From Microbulbifer sp. SAOS-129_SWC (GTDB lineage: Bacteria > Pseudomonadota > Gammaproteobacteria > Pseudomonadales > Cellvibrionaceae): DNA of 64,000 nucleotides. The notes beneath the pieces were generated by a model. That model was given only the letters and a program-made list of their open reading frames with translations. It ran no database searches and was not told where the DNA came from. Every line of letters begins with the position of its first letter. Within the stretch, counting starts at the first letter, position 1. Positions 13,634-45,207 of the stretch are shown one piece after another. A program made the position numbers and the translations under genes. The DNA lies in NCBI RefSeq assembly GCF_039696035.1, contig NZ_CP155567.1, forward strand, positions 3,963,001 to 4,027,000, read 5' to 3'.

Positions 13634-13660
13634 TTTTACTTACAACGATAGGAGGAACAA

Positions 13661-14473: not shown

Positions 14474-14504
14474 GACTATTTGATATAAAAATAATGATAA
14501 CAAA

Positions 14505-27930: not shown

Positions 27931-29508
27931 ATGCGACACGTTATACCGGTCTCGGCATTTGCAATTTCTCTCGGCATCTTGAGCGCCTGCAGTGTCACCC
28001 CCACCCCGGTTGATCAGGCCAGTATCGAGGAGCGGGTCGGCGCCGACTGGCAGACCGCCTTTGGCGCGCAGCAGCCCATCAGCGGACCCATCTCGCTGAA
28101 CGAGGCCATCGCCCGCGCTATTGCCTACAACATGGACAATCGCCTGAAGCTGATGGAAGCGGTGGTCGCCAACCGCTCGCTGAAGCTGTCGCGCTGGGAC
28201 ATGCTGCCGGAAATCGCTGCCGACGCCGGCTATTTCCACCGCAACAAACAGCACTTCGCCAGCAGTGAAGACGTCAACGGCAACCAGTCCCTGGCCCAGT
28301 CCACCTCGCTGGACAAGACCTATCGCACCGCCGGGCTCGACCTCTACTGGAACGTACTCGACTTCGGCATCAATTACCTTGCCGCCAAACAGTCCGCCGA
28401 TGGCGTGATGATTGCCGTGGAGCGCCAGCGCAAGCTGATGCAGAACGTGATCATGGACGTGGAGTACGCCTACTGGATGGCACAGGCGGCTCAACGCGCC
28501 GAAGCGCAATTGCCGACACTGATCGAGCAGACCCGGCGCGCCCTGTCCAGCTCGCGCCAGAGTGCCGAGCGCGGCCTGCGCAAGGCAGAGGCCAGTCTCA
28601 GCTACCGGCGCGAATTGTTGGAGCAGCTGCAGCAACTGGTAGAGCTGCAGAGCCACATGTACGAATCCAGGCGCGAACTGGCTTCGCTGATGGGGCTGCC
28701 GCCCGGCACCGACTACCGCGTCGCCAACACCCGGCACAGCGCCGCGATCCGCAGCCCCTTCGCCAGCATGGACCTCCAGCAGCTGGAACAGTATGGCCTG
28801 CGCAACCGCCCGGAACTGCTCGAGGAGGACTACCGCCGGCGCATGGCCGTGGACGAACTGCGCAAGTCGTGCCTGCAGCTGCTGCCGGGCCTGGAACTGC
28901 ACACCGGCTACCGCTACGACTCCAACAGCTACCTCCTTTATAACGACTGGGGCGAGAGCAGCCTGCGCCTGACCTGGAACCTGCTGCATTCGGTGATCGC
29001 CGGGCGCGATGAGGTTGGCTATGCGCGCGACAATATCGCGCTCGGCGACGTGCGGCGCGCGGCGCTGACCGTCGCGGTGTTGACCCAGATCGACCTGGCC
29101 AAAAGCCACCTGAGCCGCGCGCAGCTCAACTATCAGTACGCGCAGGAAATCGCCGACATCGACGGCCAGATGGCCAAGCAGACCCGCGCGCGCTGGAAAT
29201 CCAACCAGGGCAGCGAGCTGGAGAGCATCAAGGCTGCCACCCAGGATCTGGTTTCCAGCGTGCGTCGCGACGTCAGCTACGCCGACTGGCGCAATGCCAG
29301 CGGCAAGCTCGGTAACTCGGTCGGCTTCAGCCCCGAGTACTACATCGACTATCGCCAGCCGCTGGAGCTGATCGAGCAACAGGTCGCCGACCTGCGCTCG
29401 TCGCAGGCCAGCATGGAGCTGTTGCCGGAGGGCGGCTATTCCCCCGTCGGCGTCAAGCAGCGCGAGAGCGTTATCAGTGACGATCCGCAAGCAGCCAGAC
29501 ACTGGTGA
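27931..29508 (+). CDS. TolC/OMF-family outer-membrane lipoprotein
   Basis: The 525-residue protein has a lipoprotein signal peptide with lipobox LSAC (cleavage before the cysteine near residue 20). The remainder is long, helical and duplicated in the manner of outer-membrane factors, with ISLNEAIARAIAYNMDNRLK near the start and a second such segment (LEQYGLRNRPELLEEDYRRRMA) in the middle. It should form the outer-membrane channel and periplasmic tunnel of an export machine. It is the first gene of a tight operon: the next start lies at its stop codon. The OMF family is clear, although sequence conservation looks low and the C-terminal 40 residues are unusual. Confidence 0.85.
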   Translation: MRHVIPVSAFAISLGILSACSVTPTPVDQASIEERVGADWQTAFGAQQPISGPISLNEAIARAIAYNMDNRLKLMEAVVANRSLKLSRWDMLPEIAADAGYFHRNKQHFASSEDVNGNQSLAQSTSLDKTYRTAGLDLYWNVLDFGINYLAAKQSADGVMIAVERQRKLMQNVIMDVEYAYWMAQAAQRAEAQLPTLIEQTRRALSSSRQSAERGLRKAEASLSYRRELLEQLQQLVELQSHMYESRRELASLMGLPPGTDYRVANTRHSAAIRSPFASMDLQQLEQYGLRNRPELLEEDYRRRMAVDELRKSCLQLLPGLELHTGYRYDSNSYLLYNDWGESSLRLTWNLLHSVIAGRDEVGYARDNIALGDVRRAALTVAVLTQIDLAKSHLSRAQLNYQYAQEIADIDGQMAKQTRARWKSNQGSELESIKAATQDLVSSVRRDVSYADWRNASGKLGNSVGFSPEYYIDYRQPLELIEQQVADLRSSQASMELLPEGGYSPVGVKQRESVISDDPQAARHW

Positions 29509-29513
29509 TCGCC

Positions 29514-30320
29514 ATGGGCAATATCCGCACCCTTTGTCTCGCACTGCTGGCGGCGGTGCCGCTGCTCGCCGGTGCACAGGCACCCGCTGAGACCGCGGGC
29601 GACTATGCCGATGGCAGCGGCGCGCCGGCCAAGCTCAGCGCCATCCACCGGGTCAAACTATCCAGCGATCTTGCCGCCGTGATCACCGCAGTCAAAGTCC
29701 GCGACGGTGACCACTTCAAGCGCGGCGACCTGCTCGCCAGTTTCGACTGCACCGAACTGCGCGCCGAACTGGACAGCGCGGAGGCCCAGCGCAAGATAAC
29801 CGCGCGCCAGCACGACTCCAACCTGGAGCTGCGCCGCATCGGCGGCAATATCAGTCAACTGGAGCTGCTGCAGGGCGAAGCGCAGCTGGCCGATGCCACC
29901 GCCAAGGCCAAAGTGCTCAAACACCGCAGTGGCAACTGCGAAGTGCGCGCACCGTTCGACGGTTTCGTCATCAAGCGCGAGGTGCAGCCCTACCAGCGCG
30001 CCGAAGTCGGTATGCCGCTGTTCGAACTGGTCGACAACCGCAAGCTGGAGGTCGAGGCGATAGTACCGTCCACTTGGCTGAGCCAGCTCCGCGCCGGGCG
30101 CAAATTTCGCGTGCGCATCAACGAAACCGGCAGTACTTACCAGGCACAGTTGCAGCGCATCGTGCCGGCGGTGGACCCGGTTACGCGCACCGTGCGCGTT
30201 ATCGGCATTATCGAAGCGCCGGGAGCGCTGCTGATCGGCGGCATGAGCGGCGAAGCCCTGTTCGATATTGACGCCACAGAGCCGGCGGCCGTTGCCGGAG
30301 TCACGCAAAGTGAGCGCTAG
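29514..30320 (+). CDS. HlyD/RND-type periplasmic adaptor subunit
   Basis: The ATG at 29514 is preferred because GGTGA precedes it by five bases; a GTG at 29505 overlaps the upstream stop and would add three residues. The 268-residue product has a signal peptide (RTLCLALLAAVPLLAGAQA), a split lipoyl/barrel-sandwich domain (VITAVKVRDGDHFKRGDLLASFDC and CEVRAPFDGFVIKREVQPYQRAEVGMPLFELVD) around a short coiled-coil hairpin, and a beta-barrel domain (VEAIVPSTWLSQLRAG). It is shorter than drug-efflux adaptors and has no membrane anchor other than the signal. It should bridge the TolC-like channel to the inner-membrane component. Operon position supports this. Confidence 0.85.
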   Translation: MGNIRTLCLALLAAVPLLAGAQAPAETAGDYADGSGAPAKLSAIHRVKLSSDLAAVITAVKVRDGDHFKRGDLLASFDCTELRAELDSAEAQRKITARQHDSNLELRRIGGNISQLELLQGEAQLADATAKAKVLKHRSGNCEVRAPFDGFVIKREVQPYQRAEVGMPLFELVDNRKLEVEAIVPSTWLSQLRAGRKFRVRINETGSTYQAQLQRIVPAVDPVTRTVRVIGIIEAPGALLIGGMSGEALFDIDATEPAAVAGVTQSER

Positions 30321-31584
30321 CGCCCCACCCGGCCTGCTGGAAAAACTCAACGCCTTCCTGGCGCTGGAAAAACGCCTGCGCGGCGCGCGCAGTGTCGCGG
30401 AAATAGCCCGTATTGCCTGCTGCGACTGCCAGGCGCTGCTGCGCGTGGACAGCTGCGTGTATTTTCGCAAGCCGGACCTGAGGGCTCTGGCCGCGGCCAA
30501 TGTCGCTGACGTCGACAACACCAGCGCGGAAATACACCACTTTCGCAGCCTGCTGCGCGGCCATGCACCCGCCGCGGGCAAAACCCAGGTGGAATGCGCA
30601 ACGGAGAAATATTTTTGCCTGGTGGCAGAGATTGGCCAGTTTGGGAGATTGCTGTTCGTGCGCGCGACCCCGTTCGCCGAGCACGAGCAGGAAATCCAGC
30701 GCGAGCTGGCCGCCGCCATGGAACAGGCACTGCTGGCGCGACGCGGCGCCGCGCGACGGCCCTGGCATATGCAGCTGGCGCGGCGCAAAACCTGGTTTGC
30801 GCTATTTTTTTTCGGTGTGTGTCTGCTGCCTGTGCGCCAGAGCGTGCTCGCGCCGGCGACGCTGGCGGCTATCGATCCGCGCATCGTATCGGCAAAAACC
30901 GAGGGCGTGGTGCGCAGTATCGCCGTGGCACCCAACACCCGCATCAACAAGGGCGACCTGCTGTTTACGCTCGAATCCGCCGAGGTGGAGGCGGAGATCG
31001 GCAAGGTCAAACAGGAGATTTCCCTCTACAGTGAGCGCCTGCGTATGACGCGGCAATACAATTTCCAGGAGTCCAGCGCCGGCCACCGCCTGGCCCAGGC
31101 GCAGACGGATCTCGCCATCCGCCGCCTGGATCTCGACTACCAGCAGGACCTGCTGCAGAAAACCCGCGTGCGAGCGCCGGAATCCGGCGTGGCCATTTTT
31201 ACCGAGCCGTCGGAGTGGATCGGCCGCCGCGTGCGCGCCGGGGAAAAAGTGATGGAAATCGTGCGCCCGGATGCGCGCCAGATCCAGGTCGACCTGCCCA
31301 CCACCGATGCGATCCCTCTACCGGAGAGGGCGCAGGCGATTTTCTATGCGGAGGCGGACCCGCTGGCACCGATCAGGGGGCGCGTGCGCTACCAGAGCCT
31401 GCTCACCGCCGAGGGCGAAGACCTGCCGGCGAGCTATCGGGTCATTGCGCAGATCGAGGAGGACCAGCGCGATATCCGCATCAATACCAAGGGTTACGCA
31501 CGGCTTTACGGCGCGCGTGTGCCGCTGATTTATTTTCTGCTGCGCCGGCCACTGGCCAATATGCGCCGCTGGCTGGGCGTCTGA
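30310..31584 (+). CDS. Membrane adaptor: GAF-like N-terminal domain fused to HlyD-like domain
   Basis: The start is the GTG at 30310, with GGAG nine bases upstream; it overlaps the previous gene by 11 bp. A TTG at 30268 is possible. Residues 1-140 lack a signal peptide and resemble a GAF sensor domain (LEKRLRGARSVAEIARIACCDCQALL, then ELAAAMEQALLARRG). One membrane helix follows (WFALFFFGVCLLPV, about residue 160), then a lipoyl half (VVRSIAVAPNTRINKGDLLFTLES), a coiled coil, a second lipoyl half (TRVRAPESGVAIF) and a barrel domain. The product spans the inner membrane with the GAF part in the cytoplasm. A cytoplasmic sensor on an export adaptor is unusual. No ATPase is encoded nearby. Confidence 0.82.
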   Translation: MSASAPPGLLEKLNAFLALEKRLRGARSVAEIARIACCDCQALLRVDSCVYFRKPDLRALAAANVADVDNTSAEIHHFRSLLRGHAPAAGKTQVECATEKYFCLVAEIGQFGRLLFVRATPFAEHEQEIQRELAAAMEQALLARRGAARRPWHMQLARRKTWFALFFFGVCLLPVRQSVLAPATLAAIDPRIVSAKTEGVVRSIAVAPNTRINKGDLLFTLESAEVEAEIGKVKQEISLYSERLRMTRQYNFQESSAGHRLAQAQTDLAIRRLDLDYQQDLLQKTRVRAPESGVAIFTEPSEWIGRRVRAGEKVMEIVRPDARQIQVDLPTTDAIPLPERAQAIFYAEADPLAPIRGRVRYQSLLTAEGEDLPASYRVIAQIEEDQRDIRINTKGYARLYGARVPLIYFLLRRPLANMRRWLGV

Positions 31585-31601
31585 TCAACACAGTGAAATT
31601 A

Positions 31602-31632
31602 TTAACCCGGCAATGGAATATTGCCGGGTTAA
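31602..31632 (+). terminator. Perfect intergenic hairpin within the export operon
   Basis: TTAACCCGGCAAT (31602-31614) pairs perfectly with ATTGCCGGGTTAA (31620-31632) around GGAAT. No T-run follows on the plus strand. It starts an otherwise empty 280-bp gap before the M50 gene, which also holds a small stem ATATTTC/GAAATAT (31736-31754). It may be an attenuator or processing site, or it may mark an internal promoter region. Confidence 0.55.
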
Positions 31633-31864
31633 TGCAGCGCATGGATGTGCCGCCGCCGAGCATAGCTCGGACACAAGCCCTTGAAAGACAAGGAGATCCA
31701 CGCATCTTCGACAGTATTTGAAGGGCGGCTATCGCATATTTCAGGACGAAATATTTGATAGTCGGGTTAATAGTTTGACCACCGCCGGCTTGTCTGCGGC
31801 GCGAGGTAAATGGCAGGGCCCCATCAGCGCCTGCCTGTGTGTCATGAGGTAACTGGAGTAATTT

Positions 31865-33997
31865 GTGCAAAGCTGGCCGGTACTGCGCAGGGATTTGCAG
31901 TTTCACAGGGCGGAAGACAGCCCGGGCGACTCGCCCGGCTGGATGCTGTACGACCCCCTGCGTGCCATCTATATCGAGCTGGGCGCACTGGAGCTGCTGA
32001 TTCTGCAGCACTGGCCGCTGGGCTCCGCCGAGGCCATTGCCAGTGCCATCAGCCGCGAGCGCGGCAGCGATGTGAGCGCCGAGCAGGTGCAGCAGTTTGT
32101 GCAGTTTGCCGCCGACAATGAACTGCTGCAGAGCAGCGGCGCACAGTTGCAACAGCGCATCGACGCACGTCCGCGCGCGCCGCTGCGTTCGGTACAGCGG
32201 CTGGTATTCTGGCGCCAGCCGCTGTTTTCCCCGGACCGCCTGGCACGCTGGCTGCTGCCACTGGCGCGTCTTACCGGCCGCCGCTATTTCTGGGTCGGCG
32301 CCGCGGCACTGGCGCTACTGGCGATGATTTCCATGGCCCAGCACTGGGTCGACTACCTGAGTTACCTGCGCGCCAGCTGGAGCCCCGCCGGTATCGGCGC
32401 CTACGTCGGTAGCTACTTCCTCCTCAGCCTGTTCCACGAACTCGGCCATGCCAGCGTGGCGCGCTCTTACGGAGTGCGCGCCAACTGTGTCGGTATAGGC
32501 CTGATCGCACTGATGCCAATCATGTACAGCGAGATCACCGACGGCTGGCGGCTACCGCGACGCGCGCGCCTGCATATTTCCAGCGCCGGGGTCATTTACG
32601 AATTTCTCATCGGTGTCGTTGCCGCGCTCGCCTGGTGCGCACTGGAAGACGGCACGCTGCGCTCGGCAACCTTTTACCTGTTCACCGGTTCACTGATCAC
32701 CACGCTCGCGATCAACCTGAACCCGTTGATGCGCTTCGACGGCTACTACCTGCTCGGCGATATCGTGCGCGAAAAAAACCTGCACGCGAGCGCGGCGGCG
32801 CAGCTGCGCGCCGCTGTCTGGCACGCGCTGTTGCGCGATCCGGGTATTCGGGCACCGCGAGACCGGCGCGAGTGGTTGCTGATCGCTTTTGCGCTGTTCA
32901 GTGTGACCTACCGTCTCGGCGTGTTTATGGGTATCAGCTGGATGGCCTACCAGCTGCTGTTCAAAGCCGCCGGCGTGCTGGTGTTTGCCTTCTGTATCAC
33001 TGCGTTGTTGCTGTTGCCGACATTGCGCGAGTACCGGCTGCTGAAACGCCACCTGCGCGAGAGGCAGAAGGCCAATGCGGAAGCAAACACGGCTGCCGAC
33101 GGCGAAGCGGTAAAGAAGCGCCGCGACCTCTTTGGCCAACTGCGCCCACTGCCGATCGCCATGGCCCTGGTGCTGCTGACGCTGTTGCTCGTGCCCCTGC
33201 CCTGGCCGGTAGAGCTGCCGGCATCTACCTACTATGCGCGCAAGCAGCAGGTTGTGGCACCGCAGGGCGGTCCAATCGAATCCATTGCGGCACAAGCCGG
33301 CGATCGCGTGGCCGCCGGAACGCCGCTGCTGCTGATCGACAGCAGCGAACTGGATTACCGCATCAAACGCAACAAGCTGGAACTGGCCCTGCTCAACGAG
33401 CGCCAGGACAGCGATGGCTTTGCCGCGGCGCTGGATGCGCTCGACGGTGTCTACCTGCAGGACCTGCTCAGCAAGCGCCAGCAACTGCGCGCGCTGCAAT
33501 CGCAGAAAAACCAGCTGCAAGTAGCGGCGGAATTTTCCGGGGTGGTGGACTGGCGCCGCCGCGGCATCGGTATCGGCGAATACCTGCCCCTGAATGAACC
33601 AGTGCTGTCGATCGTGGATCCCCAATCTCTGCGCGGGCGCGCCTACGGCCGCGCACAATTTATCGAGCGCCTCGGCGGGCACCCGCACGGACACCTGTTT
33701 CTGCCCGGGCGCTGGCAGCCGATCACCGTCACCATCGATCAGGTCGACCTGATCGGTTCGCGCCAGCTGCCCGATCCCGCGCTGTCGCGCCACTACGGCG
33801 GCCCGCTGGCAACCTTGCCGGACCAGCCCGATCAGTTTACGGAAGCGCTGCACCGGATTGACTTTTCTCTCGACGGCTCACCGCCACTGGCCGATCAGCG
33901 CACTGGTTATCTGGTGGTATTCGGCAAGCCTGTCAGCCTGCTCAAATTATTTGCCCGCCGCGTGGTGGGCGTGTTTGTACGCGAGAGCGGCGTTTAG
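31865..33997 (+). CDS. M50 (site-2-type) metalloprotease fused to HlyD-like adaptor
   Basis: The start is GTG at 31865, with GGAG six bases upstream. The 710-residue product has a PqqD-like winged N-terminal region (residues 35-90, LGALELLILQHWPLG). A polytopic membrane core follows, with the M50 zinc site H191-E-L-G-H195 and the second motif N286-P-L-M-R-F-D292-G, so the protease looks active. After further membrane helices comes a periplasmic lipoyl/HlyD-like part (about 440-600, VVAPQGGPIESIAAQAGDRVAAGTPLLLID). The architecture joins an intramembrane protease to an export adaptor. It lies 38 bp before the giant surface protein gene. I infer that it engages or cleaves that protein during export; this is not shown by sequence. 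Confidence 0.85.
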   Translation: MQSWPVLRRDLQFHRAEDSPGDSPGWMLYDPLRAIYIELGALELLILQHWPLGSAEAIASAISRERGSDVSAEQVQQFVQFAADNELLQSSGAQLQQRIDARPRAPLRSVQRLVFWRQPLFSPDRLARWLLPLARLTGRRYFWVGAAALALLAMISMAQHWVDYLSYLRASWSPAGIGAYVGSYFLLSLFHELGHASVARSYGVRANCVGIGLIALMPIMYSEITDGWRLPRRARLHISSAGVIYEFLIGVVAALAWCALEDGTLRSATFYLFTGSLITTLAINLNPLMRFDGYYLLGDIVREKNLHASAAAQLRAAVWHALLRDPGIRAPRDRREWLLIAFALFSVTYRLGVFMGISWMAYQLLFKAAGVLVFAFCITALLLLPTLREYRLLKRHLRERQKANAEANTAADGEAVKKRRDLFGQLRPLPIAMALVLLTLLLVPLPWPVELPASTYYARKQQVVAPQGGPIESIAAQAGDRVAAGTPLLLIDSSELDYRIKRNKLELALLNERQDSDGFAAALDALDGVYLQDLLSKRQQLRALQSQKNQLQVAAEFSGVVDWRRRGIGIGEYLPLNEPVLSIVDPQSLRGRAYGRAQFIERLGGHPHGHLFLPGRWQPITVTIDQVDLIGSRQLPDPALSRHYGGPLATLPDQPDQFTEALHRIDFSLDGSPPLADQRTGYLVVFGKPVSLLKLFARRVVGVFVRESGV

Positions 33998-34035
33998 CCA
34001 CCGCGTCCGCGTATCAAGAGGTAGAGGTATTCACA

Positions 34036-37000
34036 ATGGACTCCCGGGAATTGAACCCCTCGCCGCTGGCTGCCGCACTGGGTGCACAGCGCCAGCTCCA
34101 CAGCCTGCGCCGCGTACTGGAAAAACGCGTGCTGCTGGACGCTTCCACCCCGGCGGATACCGGCGGCCACCTGCCGGCCGGAATGGACAGCGACAGTAGC
34201 GACAGCACCAGCACCACCAACAACGCTACATCGGATAACGACAGTCACAGCACGGACACCGGCAGCCACCAGCCGGCCGCACAGGAAAGCGATGCCGACA
34301 GTGCGCCGGCGGGGCGCAAGGAAGTGGTGGTTATCGACACCACCATTGACGACGCCCAGGCACTGATCGACGACCTGCTCCATCGCGCCGATAGTGTGAG
34401 CGACAAAGGCAACTACCAGGAGCTGCATTTCGGCGCACGCACACTGGAGTTGTACACCATCGACGGCAACGACAATGTCGCCACCATTGGCGACATCCTC
34501 GCCGAACAGGGGCACAGCGACGCCCTGCACCTGGTCACCCACGGCGGCCCCGGCGGAATTCAGATCGGCGCCGATACGCTGTCCCTGCAAACCCTGCAGC
34601 AGTTCGACGGTGAACTGCAGAGCTGGTCGTCCCACTTCACCGCCGACGCGGACATTCTGCTGTACGGCTGCAACGTCAGCTACAGCGAGACCGGCGAATC
34701 CTTCATTCTGCAGCTGTCGCAATTGACCGGCACCGATATCGCCGCTTCCGACGATCCGACCGGCAGCATTGCCCACGGCGGTGACTGGGACCTGGAGTAC
34801 GAGCAGGGCGATATCGAGACCACCGTGGTGTTTTCGCAAATGCTGCAAGGCACCTGGGATGGACTGCTGGCCGCGGATCCCAATGCCACCGTCGATGCAC
34901 CCAGCGAGGATTTCATCAACGAAACTACCGACATCACCATTGCCTTCGACAACCAGAGTACCGATACCGGCTACGGCCCGTTTATCGATGTGGTCACCGG
35001 GCCGGGCATCGAAGTGCAAAGCGTCAGCGGTTTCCTCGGCGCCACCTATGTGGAATACACCTTTACCAATGGTCAATGGGTCGACAGCGGCGGCAACCCG
35101 GTGCAGTACCATCCCTACGACCTCAACCAGACCGGCGCCATCCCGCTGCCGCCGGCCGCTACCGAGGGCTCCACCTGGTATGCCGTACAGCTGCCGTTCG
35201 GCTCCTTTACCGGCGACCAGCCGGCCTACCAGTTCACCGCATCGGCCCTGCTCGACGAGGCGTCCGGGGCGATCGTGGGTGTGCCGATCCCCATCTGGGT
35301 CCGCCCCGGTTTCATGTATGGCAACGACCCGCTGAATAACCCGGATACCGATCCGCCGCTGGTCTCCAACCCGATCACTACCAGCATCACGCCGACGGTG
35401 ATGCTGGTGGACAAGGGCGCACGCGATGGCGACGGCGACAACGCCTCGATCGGCGACGACAGCGAGACCGTCACCGGTCCCAGCGAACCGGTAAACTGGG
35501 TAGTAACCGTGGACATCGCCAACTTGTCCTCAGTCGAAAACCTGGTGGTCACCGAGCAGGTGCCCAGCAACTTCTATTACCAGCCGGGCACCGTGACCGT
35601 CACCGACGTCAATGGCACCGTGCTGCAGGAAGGCACCGACTACACCCTGTCCGAACCGCCCGAAGGCGCCAACAACAATGCGGAACTGGTGGTGACCTTC
35701 CTCAACCCGGTCACCGGCACCCTGGCGAACAACGATATCGTCATCACTTACAGTGGTTATGTCCCGGATGTGGATGCCGACGGCAATCCGATCGTCATCA
35801 ACGACGGCGCCGACGATGCCGTGCGCAACAGCGTCGACGTCACCGGTACCTACCAGGACCAGACCATCAGCAGTAGCGATGACGACGTCATCACTGCCAC
35901 GGCCACCGCAGTGCAGAAAAATGTGGCGCTGATTGAAGACAATGGCGCGACGGGCTACACCCCCGGCGACCGCCTGCAGTACACCTTGACGCTACAGGTG
36001 TCGGACTATATGGAACTGCAGGACCTGGTGTTGTCGGATCTGCTCGGCGACGGCCTGCAGGTAGATCCGGACTCCATCAACTTCGAGCTGTTCTACAACG
36101 GCACCACCTACGGCCCCGATGCCGCGGGCAATGCCACGGTTACCGAAAACAGTGGCGACGGCTCCACCACCATCAGCGTGGATATTTCCCAGGAGCTGAT
36201 CGACCGCGGCATCAGCGACGGCAGCCTCGACGGCGACCTGTATGCCGACAGCAATGTAGACGGCACCACCACCGTCGTGATCACCTACGAGGCCACCATT
36301 CGCGAGCAGTATGTCGCTACCGGAAATTCGGTGAACGACCTGGATACCATCGGCAATCAGGCCACTATCGATGCGACCTCCCCGTCCGCCAATGGCGCGA
36401 CGGTGGACAACGGCAGCAGTGAGAGCATCGTGATCGAAGGAGCGGAATCCAGTAAAAGTGTCTTCGCCGTCAACGGCAGTAGCGCCCCTGGCGACCTGAA
36501 CGATATCACGGTCGGCGATACTGTTACCTTCGCCGTCGACATCGATCTCGGGACCCTGGACGCCAATGGTATACAGATAACGGACTATTTGCCGCTGCCG
36601 GTTTTCGAGGCGGTGGCGCCGACTTTTTTCGACACCAATGACGGCGCCCTGATTCCCGGTGCCAACCAGTGGGGCTTTGGCCCCGGCACCAATTTCGCCG
36701 ACTGGCCGGCGGGCTATCTCGACGGTAGCAATGTCACCACCAGCGCCGATTCCGGCAACAACTCCATCACCTGGACCCTCAACCCGCTGGAGCAGGACAA
36801 TTCCGTCGGCGGCCATGTACAGCTGCTGTTTACCGTGCCGGTCCAGGACACGCCGTTTACCGACGGTCTCTACCTGACCAATGTGGCCTCGGTGAGTGTC
36901 GACGGCACCACCGATACCACGGTGCTGGACCCGGATGGTATTCAGGTACAGGTACTGTCGCCAGCGCTCAGCGTCACCAAAGGCGTGATCGACACCGACG

Positions 37001-40000
37001 ACCCCAATGGCGTACTCGATCCGGATCCCACCGCGCCGGTGACCTTCGACCCGGCCGGCACTCCGGGCACCGCCGGCACCCCGCCGTGGAGCGGCGCCAT
37101 CACCAGTGCCGCCCTCGACACCACGCCGATTGATTCCGACCTGAGTAACGTGGATGCAGGGGATATCGTGCGCTTTGCCATCACAGTGGAAAACAGCGGT
37201 GGCTCCGACGCCTTCGATATCACCATCAGCGATACCTTGCCCGATGGCTTCGCCGTGCCCGGCAGCGGGCTGAACCTGCAGGTCTATACCGGCGACGGTA
37301 CCCAGGTCTCCTACAGCGGCAACCTGTTCAGCGGCGGTATCACGCTGGAGGATCCTTCAGCCAACGACGGCGCCATCAATCGCGGCTACGATGCCGATAC
37401 GGGTGATACCACCGACGGCAGTAACGTCATCGTCATCGTCTACGATCTGCAGGCTACCGTGGCGGTGCAGCCGCACCAGGAAATCACCAACACCGCCACG
37501 CTCGAAGCCTACGGCGGTATCGAAGGCGGCAACGACTACACCGCCGGCAACAGCAATATCGACTGGCAGGACGACGCCGTGGTGGATATCCGCGATAACA
37601 GCGTCAGCAAGGAACTCGTCGATACCAGCATCAACAGCAGCACCAACGCCAGTAACGAAGTGGTGATCGGCGAGACCGCCACCTATTCCCTGACCATCGA
37701 GGTAGCCGAGGGCACCACGCCCAGTGCCAGCATTGTCGATACCCTCGACACCGGCCTCGAGTATATCGGCGGAATCACTGTCACCAACAACTCCGGCAAT
37801 ATTCAAAACGATTCCGGCAGTACCTGGTCGCAGGCCGACCTGACTGTCACCAACAGCGGCCAGCAGGTGACTTTCGATCTGGGCGACCTGGTCAACGTCG
37901 ACACCGACAACAGTACCACGGAGACTATCACCATCACCTACGAGGTACTGGTGCAGAATGTCTCCACCAGCCAGAGCGGCGTCCAGCTGAACAACAATGC
38001 CCAGTTTTTCTGGGACGACACCGCCGACGGCGTCGACAATCCGCAGTCACTGGCACGGGACTCGGCACAAAATGTCACCGTGATCGAACCGGACCTGCAG
38101 GTGGATAAATCCCTCAGCAGCAGCGCTACCCTGATCGATGCCAACGACCCGATCGAATACACCATCGTGGTTTCGCACACCGGCTTTTCCGATACCGATG
38201 CCTTCGATACCACCTTCACTGACACGCTGCCGCCCGAGCTGACCAACGTCGCACTGGTGAGCGCCACACTGACCGAAAACGGTGTGCCTTCCGATATCAG
38301 CGGCCAGTTCCAGGTGACCGGCAATACGCTTGAAACCATTCCCGGCTCCACATTCGACCTGTTGCAGGGCGACACCCTGACCCTGGTCGTGAGTGCCGAC
38401 GTGGTCGGTAACGTGGTGGCCGGCACTCAGGTCTCCAATACCGCCACCGTCGACTGGACCAGTATCTCCGGCGACAACCCCAACGAGCGCGACGGCATCA
38501 ATGGCCCCGGCGGCCTCAACGACTATGAGAGCAGCGATACCTTCGACTTCAACATTGCCACGGTGCAGGCCGGCAAGAGCGTTATCAGCAGTTCCATCGA
38601 TGACAATTACAACGGCACCGATGAAGCGGTGATCGGCGAACTGGTCACCTACTATTCCGCTTTCCTGGTGCCCGAGGCGAGCGCGCCCATGGCGGAAATC
38701 ATCGATACACTGCCCGACGGCGTAGAGTTCGTCAGTCTCGATGAAATCACGGTCGGTGCGGATATCGACCCGAACAGTGTTGTCTTTACCCCGCCCGCCG
38801 CCGGCGCCACTGGCACAATCAGTTTCGGTACTGCCAACCTGATAAATATCGGCGGCAACAACGGCCAGGACGAAGCGGATCTGGTGGGTCTTGTGTATAC
38901 GGTGCGCGTACTGAATGTCGACAGCAACCAGGCCGGCACAACCCTCACCAACGATGCGGTTTTTCGCTGGGACCTGAACAACAACGGCAGCAATACCGAT
39001 GCCGGCGATGGACTGGCCGAAGCGTCAACCGACGTTACGGTGATCGAGCCGCAGCTCACCATCGACAAAACCAGCAATGTCACTTCTGCCGATAACGGCG
39101 ACCAGGTGAGCTACACCATCACCATCACCAATCCGGATGACGGCAGCAGCACCACGGCCTATGACCTCAACTTCAGTGATCCGCTGCCGGCGGAACTGAC
39201 CAATGTTTCGATCGTGGCATCAGCGGATTTCGGTTTCGGTCCGGTGGATGTCTCCGGTGATTTTGCCGTAGTCGGCGGCGAGCTGGTACTGGATCCACAG
39301 GGGGAACTGGAGCTGGATCCCGGCAATGTGGTCACCATCACCGTGACCGGCACCCTGGACGATACGCTCGCCGGCAGCACCATCAGCAATACCGCCAATT
39401 TGGACTGGAGCAGCATCAACGGCCAGGACGCAAACGAGCGCACCGGCGCCGACGGCCCCGGCGGCGCCCTCAACGATTACGCCACAGATGCCAACGTGGA
39501 TATCACGGTACTGTCGCCGGGGATAGAAAAAACCCTGGTATCCACCTCACAGAATGACGATCTCAACGACGATGGCGAAGCCACCATCGGTGAAATCGTC
39601 ACCTTCCAGACTACCATCACCCTGCCCGAAGCCTCACTGACCGGCACCATCGAAGATGTCTACGGCCTGGGGTTCGAGTTCGTCGACCTGGTTGACGTGA
39701 CCTCCAGCAACCCGGATGCCATCCAGGTCGACTACAACCAGGTTTCGGTGATCGACGACCCGGGTAACTACACCGTCGGTTTCGATTTCGGCACGCTGGA
39801 GAATACCGATACCGATAACAGCACCGTGGAAACGGTAACGCTCACCTATCGGCTGCGGGTCACCGATATCAATAGCAATGTGGACGGCACCACGCTCAGC
39901 AATGACGCCAGCCTGAATTACGACACTACCGGTGATGACACGCCGGATACCACCATCAGCGACAGCGCCTCGGTGGATGTGGTGGAACCGGTACTGGATA

Positions 40001-43000
40001 TCGACAAGCAGCTATTGAGTAGCACGCCACTGACCCTCGGCGCTATCGCCACCTACCAGATTACCGTGCAACTGGATCCGTCCAGCGGTGCCGACGCTTA
40101 CAATGTCACCATCGAAGACGCGCTGCCCACCTACCTGTCCAGCGTCGAAAATGTGCAAATTGATGTGACCGGTGGCACGCCGACGATAATCGATAACTCC
40201 AGCGCCAACCTGCTATCGCTGGATATCAGTGCCATCGACAGCACCACCGTCGTGACCATTACCGTCGACGCGCGAGTAACCAGTGATCCAAACGCCGTCG
40301 GCCAGGACGTCACCAATATTGTCGACGTGGGCTCCACCACCCTGGATACCCCCGCCGGCGGTGACGACTCGGACATCGAGCGCGAGTACGATTACACCGA
40401 CCAGGTGACGGCAGCGATCGCGGCCTTCGACCTGAATATCGACAAGGACGACGGTGGCATTGATCAAAGCAACCCGGCACATCCGGGCGACACGGTCACC
40501 TACACCTTCGACTACGGCAATACCGGCACTGTCGACGCCACCAATGTGGTGATCACCGACAACCTTCCGGACTACGTCGACTTCGATCCGGTTGCCAACC
40601 CCGGCTGGGTATTGAACGGCGACACACTGACTTACAACCTGGGCACCGTCGCCGCCGGCGCAACCGGCACCGTCGAACTCGTGGTGACGATTGTCGACCC
40701 ATTGCCCGCAGGCGTCGAGCAGACCACCGACACGGTCACCATCGATACCGAAGACGGCGCCGACCCGACCCCCGACAACAACACCGATGACGAAGTCACT
40801 CCCATCGAGGCGGCGCCGGATTATGTGATCGACAAGATCGAAAACTTCTCCGACCCGGCCCACCCCGGCGACACCGTGGAGTGGACCATCGAAGTGCGCA
40901 ACGACGGCAATCAGGACGGCACCGGGGTGGTGGTCACCGACTCCCTGCCCGACACCAGCCTGTTTACCGGTTTTACCGCCAGCGATGGCGGCACCGTCGA
41001 TCTCGCCGCGGGCACCGTCACCTGGGATATCGGCGACCTCGCCGTCGGCGACAGCCGCACGTTTACCCTTACCGCCACCATCGTCGACCAGGTGCCGACC
41101 ACCATCCCCACCCAGACCAATACGGTCAGCGTCGACGACGACGGCAACAACGGCCCCGACCCGACCCCGGACAACAACACCGACAGCGAAGACTTCGATA
41201 TCACCTACGTGGATCTGAATATCGATAAAGACGACGCCGGGGTGACCGCGGAACCCGGCGACAGCGTGGTCTACACCCTGAGCTACGGCAACAGTGGCAC
41301 CGCCGATGCCTCCGGCGTGGTGATCACCGAATCCCTGCCGGATTACGCCAGCTTCGACGCGGCCAATTCCGATCCGCGCTGGGTGCAAAACGGCGATACG
41401 CTGACGCTCGACCTCGGTACCGTCGCCGCCGGCGAAACCGGCAGTGTCGAATTTACCGTGATCATCGACAGCCCGATTCCCTCGGGGGTCGAGGAAACCA
41501 GCAACACCACCAGCATCGACGACGATGGCGGCAAGGGACCGGACCAGAACACCGACGACAATAGCGATGATGAAGTCACCCCCATCGACGGCCGCCCGGA
41601 TTATGTGATCGACAAGATCGAAAACTTCTCCGACCCGGCCCACCCCGGCGACACCGTGGAGTGGACCATCGAAGTGCGCAACGACGGCAACCAGGACGGC
41701 ACCGGGGTGGTGGTCACCGACTCCCTGCCCGACACCAGCCTGTTTACCGGTTTTACCGCCAGCGATGGCGGCACCGTCGATCTCGCCGCGGGCACCGTCA
41801 CCTGGGATATCGGCGACCTCGCCGTCGGCGACAGCCGCACGTTTACCCTTACCGCCACCATCGTCGACCAGGTGCCGACCACCATCCCCACCCAGACCAA
41901 TACGGTCAGCGTCGACGACGACGGCAACAACGGCCCCGACCCGACCCCGGACAACAACACCGACAGCGAAGACTTCGATATCACCTACGTGGATCTGAAT
42001 ATCGATAAAGACGACGCCGGGGTGACCGCGGAACCCGGCGACAGCGTGGTCTACACCCTGAGCTACGGCAACAGTGGCACCGCCGATGCCTCCGGCGTGG
42101 TGATCACCGAATCCCTGCCGGATTACGCCAGCTTCGACGCGGCCAATTCCGATCCGCGCTGGGTGCAAAACGGCGATACGCTGACGCTCGACCTCGGTAC
42201 CGTCGCCGCCGGCGAAACCGGCAGTGTCGAATTTACCGTGATCATCGACAGCCCGATTCCCTCGGGGGTCGAGGAAACCAGCAACACCACCAGCATCGAC
42301 GACGATGGCGGCAAGGGACCGGACCAGAACACCGACGACAATAGCGATGATGAAGTCACCCCCATCGACGGCCGCCCGGATTATGTGATCGACAAGATCG
42401 AAAACTTCTCCGACCCGGCCCACCCCGGCGACACCGTGGAGTGGACCATCGAAGTGCGCAACGACGGCAACCAGGACGGCACCGGGGTGGTGGTCACCGA
42501 CTCCCTGCCCGACACCAGCCTGTTTACCGGTTTTACCGCCAGCGATGGCGGCACCGTCGATCTCGCCGCGGGCACCGTCACCTGGGATATCGGCGACCTC
42601 GCCGTCGGCGACAGCCGCACGTTTACCCTTACCGCCACCATCGTCGACCAGGTGCCGACCACCATCCCCACCCAGACCAATACGGTCAGCGTCGACGACG
42701 ACGGCAACAACGGCCCCGACCCGACCCCGGACAACAACACCGACAGCGAAGACTTCGATATCACCTACGTGGATCTGAATATCGATAAAGACGACGCCGG
42801 GGTGACCGCGGAACCCGGCGACAGCGTGGTCTACACCCTGAGCTACGGCAACAGTGGCACCGCCGATGCCTCCGGCGTGGTGATCACCGAATCCCTGCCG
42901 GATTACGCCAGCTTCGACGCGGCCAATTCCGATCCGCGCTGGGTGCAAAACGGCGATACGCTGACGCTCGACCTCGGTACCGTCGCCGCCGGCGAAACCG

Positions 43001-45207
43001 GCAGTGTCGAATTTACCGTGATCATCGACAGCCCGATTCCCTCGGGGGTCGAGGAAACCAGCAACACCACCAGCATCGACGACGATGGCGGCAAGGGACC
43101 GGACCAGAACACCGACGACAATAGCGATGATGAAGTCACCCCCATCGACGGCCGCCCGGATTATGTGATCGACAAGATCGAAAACTTCTCCGACCCGGCC
43201 CACCCCGGCGACACCGTGGAGTGGACCATCGAAGTGCGCAACGACGGCAACCAGGACGGCACCGGGGTGGTGGTCACCGACTCCCTGCCCGACACCAGCC
43301 TGTTTACCGGTTTTACCGCCAGCGATGGCGGCACCGTCGATCTCGCCGCGGGCACCGTCACCTGGGATATCGGCGACCTCGCCGTCGGCGACAGCCGCAC
43401 GTTTACCCTTACCGCCACCATCGTCGACCAGGTGCCGACCACCATCCCCACCCAGACCAATACGGTCAGCGTCGACGACGACGGCAACAACGGCCCCGAC
43501 CCGACCCCGGACAACAACACCGACAGCAAAGACTTCGATATCACCTACGTGGATCTGAATATCGATAAAGACGACGCCGGGGTGACCGCGGAACCCGGCG
43601 ACAGCGTGGTCTACACCCTGAGCTACGGCAACAGTGGCACCGCCGATGCCTCCGGCGTGGTGATCACCGAATCCCTGCCGGATTACGCCAGCTTCGACGC
43701 GGCCAATTCCGATCCGCGCTGGGTGCAAAACGGCGATACGCTGACGCTCGACCTCGGTACCGTCGCCGCCGGCGAAACCGGCAGTGTCGAATTTACCGTG
43801 ATCATCGACAGCCCGATTCCCTCGGGGGTCGAGGAAACCAGCAACACCACCAGCATCGACGACGATGGCGGCAAGGGGCCGGACCAGAACACCGACGACA
43901 ACAGCGATGATGAAGTCACCCCCATCGACGGCCGCCCGGATTATGTGATCGTCAAGATCCCGAACTACAACGGCCCCGCAAATCCCGGCGACACCGTCAG
44001 CTGGACCATCGATGTGAGCAATCAGGGCAATCAGGACGGCACCGGGGTAGTGGTCACTGACACACTACCGGACACCAGCCTGTTCTCCGGCTTTGTAGCC
44101 AGCGACGGCGGTGTCATCGACCTTGCCGCCGGCACTGTGACCTGGCAGCTCGGCGACCTGGACGCCGGCGACAGTGTGACCCTGAGCCTCTCCGCCACCG
44201 TCAAGTCGGAAAACCTGCCCGCCGATGTCCCGCCACAGCAACAGAACAGCGTGGAAGTCACCGACGACGGCAGTAACGGCCAGGATCCGACCCCGGACAA
44301 CAATCACGATATGAAACCCCTCGAGGTGGAGTTCGTCGACCTGGTCATCGACAAGGACGACGGCGACGCCTTCCCCGGCCCCACCGACGGCTACAGCTAC
44401 ACCCTCAGCTACGCCAACCGCGGCAACACCACCGCGGACAATGTGGTCATTACCGAAACCCTGCCGCCCAACACCAGTTTCGACGCTGCCAATTCCACGC
44501 CCGGCTGGCAGCAGAACGGCAACACCTTCACCCTTGATGTCGGCAGCCTGGAGGCTGGCGAGAGCGGCACGGTGGAGTTTGCGGTGATCGTCGACTATCC
44601 GCTGCAGGTCACCATCGACAGCACCAGCAATACCGCCAGCATCGATTACGACGGCGGCGCCGGTAAGGATCCAACCCCGGACAACAATACCGACTCCACC
44701 GAGACACCGATCGACAATCCCGGCCCGCAGGTGGACAACATCACGCTGTCGCAGCTGCACTGGCAAATGGAATACCGCGAGCGCCCGCAGGCACCGACGC
44801 AACCGGAGATGTACGGCCGCCTGATCTCGCGCGAAACCCAGGCGGTCACCGCCAACCTGCAGGGCAGCCGCACTGGCAGCCTGTTCGATCCGGCCTTCGG
44901 CACCGTGGATGGACATTTCTATCCCAACGACTGGTCAGCCGTTTTCGGCGAGGAGAGCGGCTACTGGCTGTCACCGACGGAGGGCAGCGGTGACCACGCG
45001 GGCCTGCTGCAGCTGGACGACCATTTCGCCGGCTATCGTGCCGACAGCCTGTACGATATTTTCGGCAAGGCACTGATCAGCGCGGAAAATGAAGCCCGGC
45101 AGGACCCGCTGCAACAACAGCTGGATGCCATCAGCCGCGACCTCGACAGCACCGGCATAGCGCCAATTCTCGGTGCCATGGCGAAGCAGGTCGCGAGCGA
45201 ACCCTGA
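34036..45207 (+). CDS. Giant surface protein: LEPR-like motif, DUF4347 and about twenty DUF11-type repeats
   Basis: GAGG precedes the ATG. The 3723-residue protein has no classical signal peptide. Residues 28-36 read LEKRVLLDA, the LEPR-like motif at the N-terminus of some giant exported proteins. A DUF4347 domain (about 95-260) follows, with TH169GG and YGC212N. From about residue 450 the chain is a string of DUF11-type beta-sandwich repeats (for example PGDTVEWTIEVRNDGNQDGTG), joined by Asp-rich linkers such as DDDGNNGPDPTPDNNTDS that look calcium-binding. Residues 2261-3300 are four almost identical 260-residue units. The last 170 residues form a distinct domain without RTX repeats or LPXTG. 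Probable adhesin or surface filament exported by the upstream genes. Confidence 0.88.
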   Translation: MDSRELNPSPLAAALGAQRQLHSLRRVLEKRVLLDASTPADTGGHLPAGMDSDSSDSTSTTNNATSDNDSHSTDTGSHQPAAQESDADSAPAGRKEVVVIDTTIDDAQALIDDLLHRADSVSDKGNYQELHFGARTLELYTIDGNDNVATIGDILAEQGHSDALHLVTHGGPGGIQIGADTLSLQTLQQFDGELQSWSSHFTADADILLYGCNVSYSETGESFILQLSQLTGTDIAASDDPTGSIAHGGDWDLEYEQGDIETTVVFSQMLQGTWDGLLAADPNATVDAPSEDFINETTDITIAFDNQSTDTGYGPFIDVVTGPGIEVQSVSGFLGATYVEYTFTNGQWVDSGGNPVQYHPYDLNQTGAIPLPPAATEGSTWYAVQLPFGSFTGDQPAYQFTASALLDEASGAIVGVPIPIWVRPGFMYGNDPLNNPDTDPPLVSNPITTSITPTVMLVDKGARDGDGDNASIGDDSETVTGPSEPVNWVVTVDIANLSSVENLVVTEQVPSNFYYQPGTVTVTDVNGTVLQEGTDYTLSEPPEGANNNAELVVTFLNPVTGTLANNDIVITYSGYVPDVDADGNPIVINDGADDAVRNSVDVTGTYQDQTISSSDDDVITATATAVQKNVALIEDNGATGYTPGDRLQYTLTLQVSDYMELQDLVLSDLLGDGLQVDPDSINFELFYNGTTYGPDAAGNATVTENSGDGSTTISVDISQELIDRGISDGSLDGDLYADSNVDGTTTVVITYEATIREQYVATGNSVNDLDTIGNQATIDATSPSANGATVDNGSSESIVIEGAESSKSVFAVNGSSAPGDLNDITVGDTVTFAVDIDLGTLDANGIQITDYLPLPVFEAVAPTFFDTNDGALIPGANQWGFGPGTNFADWPAGYLDGSNVTTSADSGNNSITWTLNPLEQDNSVGGHVQLLFTVPVQDTPFTDGLYLTNVASVSVDGTTDTTVLDPDGIQVQVLSPALSVTKGVIDTDDPNGVLDPDPTAPVTFDPAGTPGTAGTPPWSGAITSAALDTTPIDSDLSNVDAGDIVRFAITVENSGGSDAFDITISDTLPDGFAVPGSGLNLQVYTGDGTQVSYSGNLFSGGITLEDPSANDGAINRGYDADTGDTTDGSNVIVIVYDLQATVAVQPHQEITNTATLEAYGGIEGGNDYTAGNSNIDWQDDAVVDIRDNSVSKELVDTSINSSTNASNEVVIGETATYSLTIEVAEGTTPSASIVDTLDTGLEYIGGITVTNNSGNIQNDSGSTWSQADLTVTNSGQQVTFDLGDLVNVDTDNSTTETITITYEVLVQNVSTSQSGVQLNNNAQFFWDDTADGVDNPQSLARDSAQNVTVIEPDLQVDKSLSSSATLIDANDPIEYTIVVSHTGFSDTDAFDTTFTDTLPPELTNVALVSATLTENGVPSDISGQFQVTGNTLETIPGSTFDLLQGDTLTLVVSADVVGNVVAGTQVSNTATVDWTSISGDNPNERDGINGPGGLNDYESSDTFDFNIATVQAGKSVISSSIDDNYNGTDEAVIGELVTYYSAFLVPEASAPMAEIIDTLPDGVEFVSLDEITVGADIDPNSVVFTPPAAGATGTISFGTANLINIGGNNGQDEADLVGLVYTVRVLNVDSNQAGTTLTNDAVFRWDLNNNGSNTDAGDGLAEASTDVTVIEPQLTIDKTSNVTSADNGDQVSYTITITNPDDGSSTTAYDLNFSDPLPAELTNVSIVASADFGFGPVDVSGDFAVVGGELVLDPQGELELDPGNVVTITVTGTLDDTLAGSTISNTANLDWSSINGQDANERTGADGPGGALNDYATDANVDITVLSPGIEKTLVSTSQNDDLNDDGEATIGEIVTFQTTITLPEASLTGTIEDVYGLGFEFVDLVDVTSSNPDAIQVDYNQVSVIDDPGNYTVGFDFGTLENTDTDNSTVETVTLTYRLRVTDINSNVDGTTLSNDASLNYDTTGDDTPDTTISDSASVDVVEPVLDIDKQLLSSTPLTLGAIATYQITVQLDPSSGADAYNVTIEDALPTYLSSVENVQIDVTGGTPTIIDNSSANLLSLDISAIDSTTVVTITVDARVTSDPNAVGQDVTNIVDVGSTTLDTPAGGDDSDIEREYDYTDQVTAAIAAFDLNIDKDDGGIDQSNPAHPGDTVTYTFDYGNTGTVDATNVVITDNLPDYVDFDPVANPGWVLNGDTLTYNLGTVAAGATGTVELVVTIVDPLPAGVEQTTDTVTIDTEDGADPTPDNNTDDEVTPIEAAPDYVIDKIENFSDPAHPGDTVEWTIEVRNDGNQDGTGVVVTDSLPDTSLFTGFTASDGGTVDLAAGTVTWDIGDLAVGDSRTFTLTATIVDQVPTTIPTQTNTVSVDDDGNNGPDPTPDNNTDSEDFDITYVDLNIDKDDAGVTAEPGDSVVYTLSYGNSGTADASGVVITESLPDYASFDAANSDPRWVQNGDTLTLDLGTVAAGETGSVEFTVIIDSPIPSGVEETSNTTSIDDDGGKGPDQNTDDNSDDEVTPIDGRPDYVIDKIENFSDPAHPGDTVEWTIEVRNDGNQDGTGVVVTDSLPDTSLFTGFTASDGGTVDLAAGTVTWDIGDLAVGDSRTFTLTATIVDQVPTTIPTQTNTVSVDDDGNNGPDPTPDNNTDSEDFDITYVDLNIDKDDAGVTAEPGDSVVYTLSYGNSGTADASGVVITESLPDYASFDAANSDPRWVQNGDTLTLDLGTVAAGETGSVEFTVIIDSPIPSGVEETSNTTSIDDDGGKGPDQNTDDNSDDEVTPIDGRPDYVIDKIENFSDPAHPGDTVEWTIEVRNDGNQDGTGVVVTDSLPDTSLFTGFTASDGGTVDLAAGTVTWDIGDLAVGDSRTFTLTATIVDQVPTTIPTQTNTVSVDDDGNNGPDPTPDNNTDSEDFDITYVDLNIDKDDAGVTAEPGDSVVYTLSYGNSGTADASGVVITESLPDYASFDAANSDPRWVQNGDTLTLDLGTVAAGETGSVEFTVIIDSPIPSGVEETSNTTSIDDDGGKGPDQNTDDNSDDEVTPIDGRPDYVIDKIENFSDPAHPGDTVEWTIEVRNDGNQDGTGVVVTDSLPDTSLFTGFTASDGGTVDLAAGTVTWDIGDLAVGDSRTFTLTATIVDQVPTTIPTQTNTVSVDDDGNNGPDPTPDNNTDSKDFDITYVDLNIDKDDAGVTAEPGDSVVYTLSYGNSGTADASGVVITESLPDYASFDAANSDPRWVQNGDTLTLDLGTVAAGETGSVEFTVIIDSPIPSGVEETSNTTSIDDDGGKGPDQNTDDNSDDEVTPIDGRPDYVIVKIPNYNGPANPGDTVSWTIDVSNQGNQDGTGVVVTDTLPDTSLFSGFVASDGGVIDLAAGTVTWQLGDLDAGDSVTLSLSATVKSENLPADVPPQQQNSVEVTDDGSNGQDPTPDNNHDMKPLEVEFVDLVIDKDDGDAFPGPTDGYSYTLSYANRGNTTADNVVITETLPPNTSFDAANSTPGWQQNGNTFTLDVGSLEAGESGTVEFAVIVDYPLQVTIDSTSNTASIDYDGGAGKDPTPDNNTDSTETPIDNPGPQVDNITLSQLHWQMEYRERPQAPTQPEMYGRLISRETQAVTANLQGSRTGSLFDPAFGTVDGHFYPNDWSAVFGEESGYWLSPTEGSGDHAGLLQLDDHFAGYRADSLYDIFGKALISAENEARQDPLQQQLDAISRDLDSTGIAPILGAMAKQVASEP
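40816..43935 (+). repeat. Four tandem 780-bp near-identical coding repeats
   Basis: Units start at 40816, 41596, 42376 and 43156. Reading them side by side I find only four variant bases: 40911 (T for C), 43528 (A for G, Glu to Lys), 43878 (G for A) and 43902 (C for T). Each unit encodes two DUF11-type domains (260 residues). Codon-level identity shows recent expansion or ongoing homogenisation. A fifth, clearly diverged unit follows from 43936. Confidence 0.97.

Follow-up and report, generated by a model that had tools for sequence, protein, structure and literature searches.

A five-gene locus of Microbulbifer as a candidate export system for a giant LExR-leader protein, with no ABC transporter at the locus

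How could a protein of thousands of residues be exported when the genes beside it encode a TolC-type channel and HlyD-type adaptors and no ABC protein? The question is raised by five adjoining genes of Microbulbifer sp. SAOS-129_SWC, contained in the 64,000-nt stretch analysed here (the window), which is part of a single-contig 4.63 Mb genome (G000) with a listed completeness of 100%. The five genes almost certainly form one system. That they represent a giant surface-type protein together with its dedicated, ABC-independent, type-I-like exporter, the driving force being left open, is a reading to which we give about an even chance.

The locus and its proteins

The first-pass annotation had read five genes of these families in a row on one strand, with the first three overlapping and no ATPase encoded, and open reading frames and Pfam confirmed the positions and families (Table 1). 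Genes 1 and 2 overlapped by 4 nt, and genes 2 and 3 by 11 nt if gene 3 starts at its likely GTG (30310, with GGAG upstream) rather than at the mechanical TTG start (30268). No ABC protein was found among the 25 window proteins scanned with Pfam, and the sole NTPase among the 20 of these that lie outside the locus was a DEAD-box helicase. The inverted repeat between genes 3 and 4 was unique in the window (1 match, 0 in 100 shuffles) and no T run followed it. The flanks (1092-26327 and 47942-51238) encoded TonB receptors, three tryptophan-halogenase-like proteins, GH97, GH31, and an alpha-1,3-glucanase, and the locus possibly sits inside a glucan-use region.

Table 1. Features of the five-gene locus, in window coordinates.
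Feature	Position	Strand	Basis
TolC/OprM-type outer-membrane factor (OMF), lipoprotein, lipobox Cys20 (gene 1)	27931..29508	+	Pfam OEP/TolC, 86 bits; C20 conservation
Short periplasmic adaptor, RND-type membrane fusion protein, conserved C82 and C145 (gene 2)	29505..30320	+	TIGR01730, 115 bits
Membrane-anchored HlyD-type adaptor, possible GAF N-terminal region (gene 3)	30310..31584	+	Pfam HlyD_3, 38.8 bits
Inverted repeat in the gap between genes 3 and 4, with perfect 13-bp arms and a 5-nt loop	31602..31632	+	
RRE-M50-HlyD fusion of 710 aa, the proposed inner-membrane core that would bind and cut the leader (gene 4)	31865..33997	+	Pfam, AlphaFold2, fold match
RRE-like domain, M50-HlyD residues 3-90	31871..32134	+	
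HELGH zinc-binding motif, M50-HlyD residues 191-195	32435..32449	+	Invariance in 40 sequences
NLNPLMRFDGYY motif with third zinc-ligand candidate D292, M50-HlyD residues 284-295	32714..32749	+	Invariance in 40 sequences
HlyD/MacA-like periplasmic adaptor domain, M50-HlyD residues 445-693	33197..33943	+	
Giant substrate candidate, 3723 aa (gene 5)	34036..45207	+	
LExR leader motif LEKRVLLDA, giant residues 28-36	34117..34143	+	Alignment A2
DUF4347, caspase/CHAT-like fold, H169 and C212	34324..34869	+	
Four near-identical 780-bp repeats within the giant gene	40813..43961	+	Script

The lipobox cysteine of the OMF filled 100% of its column in an alignment with 63 relatives. The short adaptor exceeded the TIGR01730 cut-off of 94.9 and also matched HlyD_3 (67 bits), and its C82 and C145 were kept at 98% and 96% among its relatives. 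Gene 3 had been called a GAF-HlyD adaptor; the HlyD part stood, and the GAF part is at most hinted at by a match of 21.1 bits, under the 22.4 cut-off, in one of the two relatives scanned, the window protein itself giving no GAF match in Pfam. In the locus of the closest relative (L113 of G067, 12579-14981) no reading frame could be assigned to the OMF, and an 800-aa frame contained the short adaptor, possibly the result of a frameshift or an assembly error.

The fourth gene product (M50-HlyD), whose nearest relatives among the matches listed were from Microbulbifer species, matched Peptidase_M50 (28.7 bits) and HlyD_3 (25.3 bits); its Pfam families were M50 and HlyD/biotinyl, with no C39 and no ABC. 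Its M50 site was intact: H191, E192, H195, and D292 were invariant in alignment A1 (40 sequences, the window protein plus 39 loci; alignment A3 held 26), as were N284 and L288-Y295, and D292 is the candidate third zinc ligand. The AlphaFold2 model (mean pLDDT 87.7) contained RRE and HlyD folds, the former at the N-terminus, both recognised by fold matches. Pfam and PDB sequence searches with the N-terminal domain found no PqqD/RRE family, so the RRE assignment comes from the predicted structure. In that model the first membrane helix comes after the RRE-like domain, which is therefore probably cytoplasmic. The daptide RRE-site-2 protease model NF041824 aligned to residues 55-384 with 134.7 bits, and to the relative on an E. 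coli plasmid with 172.6 bits, both below its cut-off of 300. Existing annotation of M50-HlyD proteins names generic efflux subunits or zinc metalloproteases.

The Pfam matches of the giant protein included DUF4347 (154 bits) and 15 DUF11 stretches, and no RTX family was present among them at E<=0.001. The 780-bp repeats were 99.5-100% identical between neighbours, which suggests recent duplication or gene conversion; they were detected by a script and missed by Tandem Repeats Finder, which allows periods of up to 500. The fold of DUF4347 is of the clan CD (caspase/CHAT) protease type. H169 and C212 were kept in 24 rows of alignment A2, 23 of them chosen by that motif, and among 30 DUF4347 matches chosen instead by PF14252, GC was present in 29 and HG in 23. 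For A2, 23 of 29 regions selected with the LE.R and HG...GC patterns were used, so these positions are conserved by choice, and D35 is free of that selection. Weak PDB matches to small GTPases were discounted, since alpha/beta folds of this kind are common. Excerpts of the literature mention DUF4347 for a candidate T6SS effector and in an expression table of B. thailandensis.

Recurrence of the cassette and the leader of the giant

A pattern scan of GTDB species genomes gave at least 525 stretches with M50-HlyD relatives, from which the best 80 loci were kept. In these best 80 of at least 525 loci, M50-HlyD was present in 76, the two adaptors together in 70, and the OMF in 63, while the next family reached only 12; the cassette genes lay on the expected strand in 77/80. 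The pattern is more than chance because it recurs across phyla. An adjacent giant could be looked for in 53 of the 80 loci, those where each flank of the cassette extends for 1.5 kb or more. Under a strict rule (a same-strand protein of 1000 aa or more with a DUF4347-region match or LExR motif) a giant adjoined the cassette in 42 of these 53, and under a looser rule (either strand, 650 aa) in 51. The 48 strict-rule loci drawn from the same 80 had the giant downstream (36), upstream (10), or on both sides (2). A family of ~360 aa lay beside the cassette in nine loci (L030, L034, L036, L049, L055, L067, L069, L072, and L074), alphaproteobacterial where titled.

On plasmids of Kosakonia cowanii, Azospirillum argentinense, and E. 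coli, all four exporter genes adjoined a LExR-DUF4347 giant. The E. coli M50-HlyD gene was found in 24/5426 E. coli genomes, with 21 of its 25 places on plasmids, and the pABWA45_1 copy (L150, L153) came with a 13.4-kb LExR-DUF4347-cadherin gene. On the Kosakonia plasmid, three genes annotated as tail fiber come after the cassette.

The co-occurrence of M50-HlyD with DUF4347 giants, suggested as a check by the first-pass annotation, was searched for, and the two were associated in both the genus and the class sample. Within the genus (37 genomes), M50-HlyD and DUF4347 occurred in the same 11 genomes and 26 had neither (Fisher p=1.2e-9, uncorrected for descent); one of the 11, G071, had a stop inside the M50-HlyD match. 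At order level, G100 and G105 had both, and an M50-HlyD match with no DUF4347 match was seen in G094, G096, G103, and weakly in G089 and G101. The giant beside the cassette ran off the contig in G094 and G103, its start unseen; G096 had a cassette with no adjoining giant, and in G092 a DUF4347 protein starting Sec-like was accompanied by generic adaptor matches only. Across the class (232 genomes, best 4-5 candidates scored per genome), 23 had both, 7 DUF4347 only, 11 the cassette only, and 191 neither (p=1.3e-17), with the partial M50 match of G056 (38-339 of 712, in a 408-aa protein lacking an HlyD match) not counted as a cassette.

The N-terminus of the giant had been described as LEPR-like. 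A LExR-type leader was indeed present, in the form LEKRVLLDA and not as a literal LEPR. Judged by the best DUF4347 match per genome, which leaves out the second copies of G000 and G067, the 30 DUF4347 genomes of the class sample had a LExR-type leader in 23, no leader in 6, and a cut-off start in one (G261, left out of the leader table); the irregular leader of G311, some others, and the Sec-like starts (four of the 6) were classed by eye. The cassette was present in 21 of the 23 LExR genomes at E<=1e-60, and in 22 with G201, counted as cassette-bearing with a gene that runs off the contig end and two adaptor-like matches beside it. The sole LExR-DUF4347 genome lacking the cassette, G299, carried an LssB-type ABC. 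Leaderless DUF4347 genomes had the cassette in 1/6 (G167; Fisher p=2.9e-4 against LExR).

Two types of leader were recognised, LExRxxxDA/G and LEPRxLxSAD. The former paired with M50-HlyD profile scores of 702-989 bits (6 genomes, 1.0-1.4 bits/position), the profile rows with visible leaders being themselves of this type, and the latter with 219-356 bits (14 genomes, including one AAD-variant and one irregular leader), where four of the 14 genes were partial (0.39-0.65 bits/position). G152, with a D-type leader and a partial M50-HlyD gene, was intermediate (0.70 bits/position). This match between leader type and M50-HlyD subfamily could come from linkage alone. The earlier proposal that M50-HlyD recognises the N-terminus of the giant is favoured by the RRE fold of the model, by the cassette in 22/23 LExR genomes, and by the leader type tracking the subfamily. 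That the RRE-like domain binds LExR and the M50 site cuts the leader is somewhat better than an even bet.

G000 and G067 each carried a second DUF4347 gene unlinked to a cassette; both products end LPTL...WRNRRR, and the G067 copy has a Sec-like start. The unlinked locus of the window genome is L099 (C1:907000-922000). Among the unlinked DUF4347 proteins, a Sec-like start was seen in L107 and L100 and the LPTL...WRNRRR end in L099 and L107. The conserved neighbour of these genes (L099, L107, and L100) is presumably sulfotransferase-like, and three small proteins that we take to be tail-collar-like adjoin the gene in L099 and L107.

ABC exporters and other routes for the giant

An unlikely alternative is type I secretion with the ABC protein supplied from elsewhere, where the four genes would be accessory parts recruiting a general or distant ABC exporter. 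The TolC and HlyD parts are type-I-like, and a type I ABC occurs in 13/34 class-sample cassette genomes. Within the genus, an LssB-type ABC (E<=1e-110) was found in 9/11 cassette genomes and 16/26 others, G000 and G067 being the cassette genomes that lack it. LssB matches exceeded the cut-off in 15/50 cassette genomes from the M50-HlyD scan, with many more full-length matches below it. Sixteen cassette genomes including G000 were examined further and gave PrtD types in 7 and none in 9, several of these 9 being draft bins, with a partial LssB-like match in G022 and a low-scoring full-length one in G017. An ABC ATPase adjoined the OMF in three loci: a divergent 366-aa ORF in L110 and L111 of the genus, importer-like by its neighbour, and a 234-aa ORF after the OMF on the other strand in L112 (G105); the window itself has no such ATPase.

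Against this reading, the class sample showed no enrichment: LssB/HlyB-like or PrtD-like ABC proteins (E<=1e-125) were found in 13/34 cassette genomes and 64/198 others (p=0.56), and none was seen in 21/34 cassette genomes with the best 4-5 candidates scored. The first-pass annotation had raised the possibility of an ABC transporter always encoded elsewhere, and this does not hold: G000, a complete genome, showed no type I ABC, nor did the cassette genomes G150, G188, and G285, each a single contig, and searches of the Nitrospira record G036 (chromosome CP092081) with models of LssB and PrtD gave none either. G000 had three ABC_membrane matches (MsbA, MsbA-related, and one unassigned; two over cut-off), none near the T1SS cut-off. 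No ABC family recurred in the best 80 of at least 525 loci; ABC-signature ORFs were present in 3/77 of these and weak ABC similarity in two more, L047 and L066. Export of the giant seems reasonably likely to need no dedicated ABC, and an ABC protein may contribute in the species of the genus carrying both the cassette and an LssB-type ABC. Housekeeping ATPases (SecA, MsbA-type) may contribute as well. Of the earlier suggestion that M50-HlyD takes the place of the ABC protein at the inner membrane, the dedicated locus and the lack of a linked ABC stood; M50-HlyD is a candidate translocase, and we know of no M50 protein that translocates proteins.

A two-step route, with SecYEG/SecA moving the giant across the inner membrane and the cassette trimming the leader and providing outer-membrane passage, is improbable. 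SecA is a general energy source for bacterial export, and some other DUF4347 proteins have Sec-like starts. However, only 1/4 of the genomes whose best DUF4347 match starts Sec-like had the cassette, and the RRE-like domain is probably cytoplasmic, as judged from the model. The window leader, unlike those of Sec-exported proteins, is charged and lacks a hydrophobic signal (best 15-residue Kyte-Doolittle mean 0.33). Other LExR leaders overlap weak Sec-like starts: 25 LExR entries had a median of 0.94 and a maximum of 1.70, against 1.44-2.52 for six Sec-like starts, 3 of which fall within the LExR range.

It is also doubtful, to a slightly greater degree, that the giant exits by some other route and that the cassette serves maturation or retention, cutting the leader and anchoring the protein in the envelope. 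Protease and adaptor parts are present for such a task, and in the available part of one report the daptide RRE-M50 protein is a leader peptidase with ABC transporters beside it (PMC10036551), but a TolC-type channel with three adaptors suggests a conduit, and no other exporter family recurred in the best 80 of at least 525 loci. Chance neighbours or unrelated efflux genes, a reading helped by the generic annotation (efflux subunit or protease) of every part taken singly, are very hard to reconcile with a gene order kept across phyla and plasmids and with the matched presence and absence.

Relation to known systems and proposed mechanism

Returning to the preferred reading of an ABC-independent exporter, the cassette resembles type I secretion (HlyB/HlyD/TolC, and the Lap type for giant adhesins) in its TolC-type channel, HlyD-type adaptors, and adjoining giant repeat protein, and it probably works like it. 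It differs in the lack of a linked or associated ABC exporter, in having three adaptors, one fused to an RRE-like domain and a site-2 protease, and in an N-terminal leader motif on a giant with no RTX match. RTX repeats are common, not universal, in type I substrates, whose C-terminal secretion signal is uncleaved. We do not file the cassette under type I secretion because the defining ABC test failed. PCAT/AMS (C39) exporters share with the proposed cassette a leader-recognising and peptidase function in the inner-membrane component; instead of a C39 and ABC core the cassette has M50 and an RRE-like domain, with no nucleotide-binding domain. MacAB-TolC and RND/MFS tripartite pumps have a MacB, RND, or MFS transporter, which the cassette lacks.

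At the leader the cassette resembles daptide MpaP, an RRE-site-2 protease acting with the leader motif ELExMEAP in the accessible sections of PMC10036551: both fuse RRE to an intramembrane M50 and involve a LE-containing motif. The epipeptide M50 protein EpeP is thought to cleave and export a peptide, according to a passage of PMC10885120. Compared with these sections on MpaP and EpeP, the cassette adds an HlyD domain, tripartite partners, and a candidate substrate of thousands of residues in place of small peptides. RiPP systems, whose substrate is a short precursor peptide, differ further in that the linked candidate substrate here, among ORFs of at least 90 aa, has 3723 aa. The LEPR-XLL model (NF012209, LEPR-8K) describes a similar N-terminal LEPR-type motif and matched 15/24 N-terminal regions at E up to 1, the window leader scoring 11.3 bits against the 17-bit cut-off; unlike this motif-only model, the leader is here tied to a linked machine.

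No description of the gene set was found in searches of open-access papers, and one may exist in subscription papers or preprints. The Pectobacterium MRP adhesin system, weighed as possible prior art, is termed type I in the portions seen of PMC6584795 and PMC6963963. The latter mentions LapG with MRP and reports a peptidase M50 for P. aroidearum alone, and on the strength of those portions the system is probably a different one. The Asaia secretome paper PMC12502724, from its accessible part, was not relevant.

Tentatively, and with a little less than even confidence, we propose a new one-step class of Gram-negative secretion with no dedicated NTPase, in which an RRE-M50-adaptor gate serves giant proteins and LExR/LEPR is the address tag. 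In the preferred reading, the RRE-like domain of M50-HlyD would bind, in the cytoplasm, the charged, weakly hydrophobic leader LExRxxxDA of the nascent giant, on the model of RiPP leader binding. M50-HlyD and the GAF-HlyD protein, both in the inner membrane with periplasmic HlyD domains, would form a mixed ring with the soluble RND-type adaptor on the lipoprotein TolC. The unfolded giant would then cross this conduit in one step towards display at the surface, and cleavage of the leader by the M50 site would commit or release the chain. Outside, the caspase-like DUF4347 may cut again. Proton motive force, ribosome push, and extracellular folding are candidate driving forces.

Microbulbifer suits the testing of this scheme, with the locus in some species and absent from close relatives. 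If the scheme is true, RiPP leader recognition and protein secretion would be connected, the LEPR-XLL motif and M50-HlyD proteins would each gain a suggested function, and LEPR-XLL giants, whose export has so far been unexplained, would have an export route. A widespread conduit of this kind would then be a new solution for taking very large proteins across two membranes without an ABC protein.
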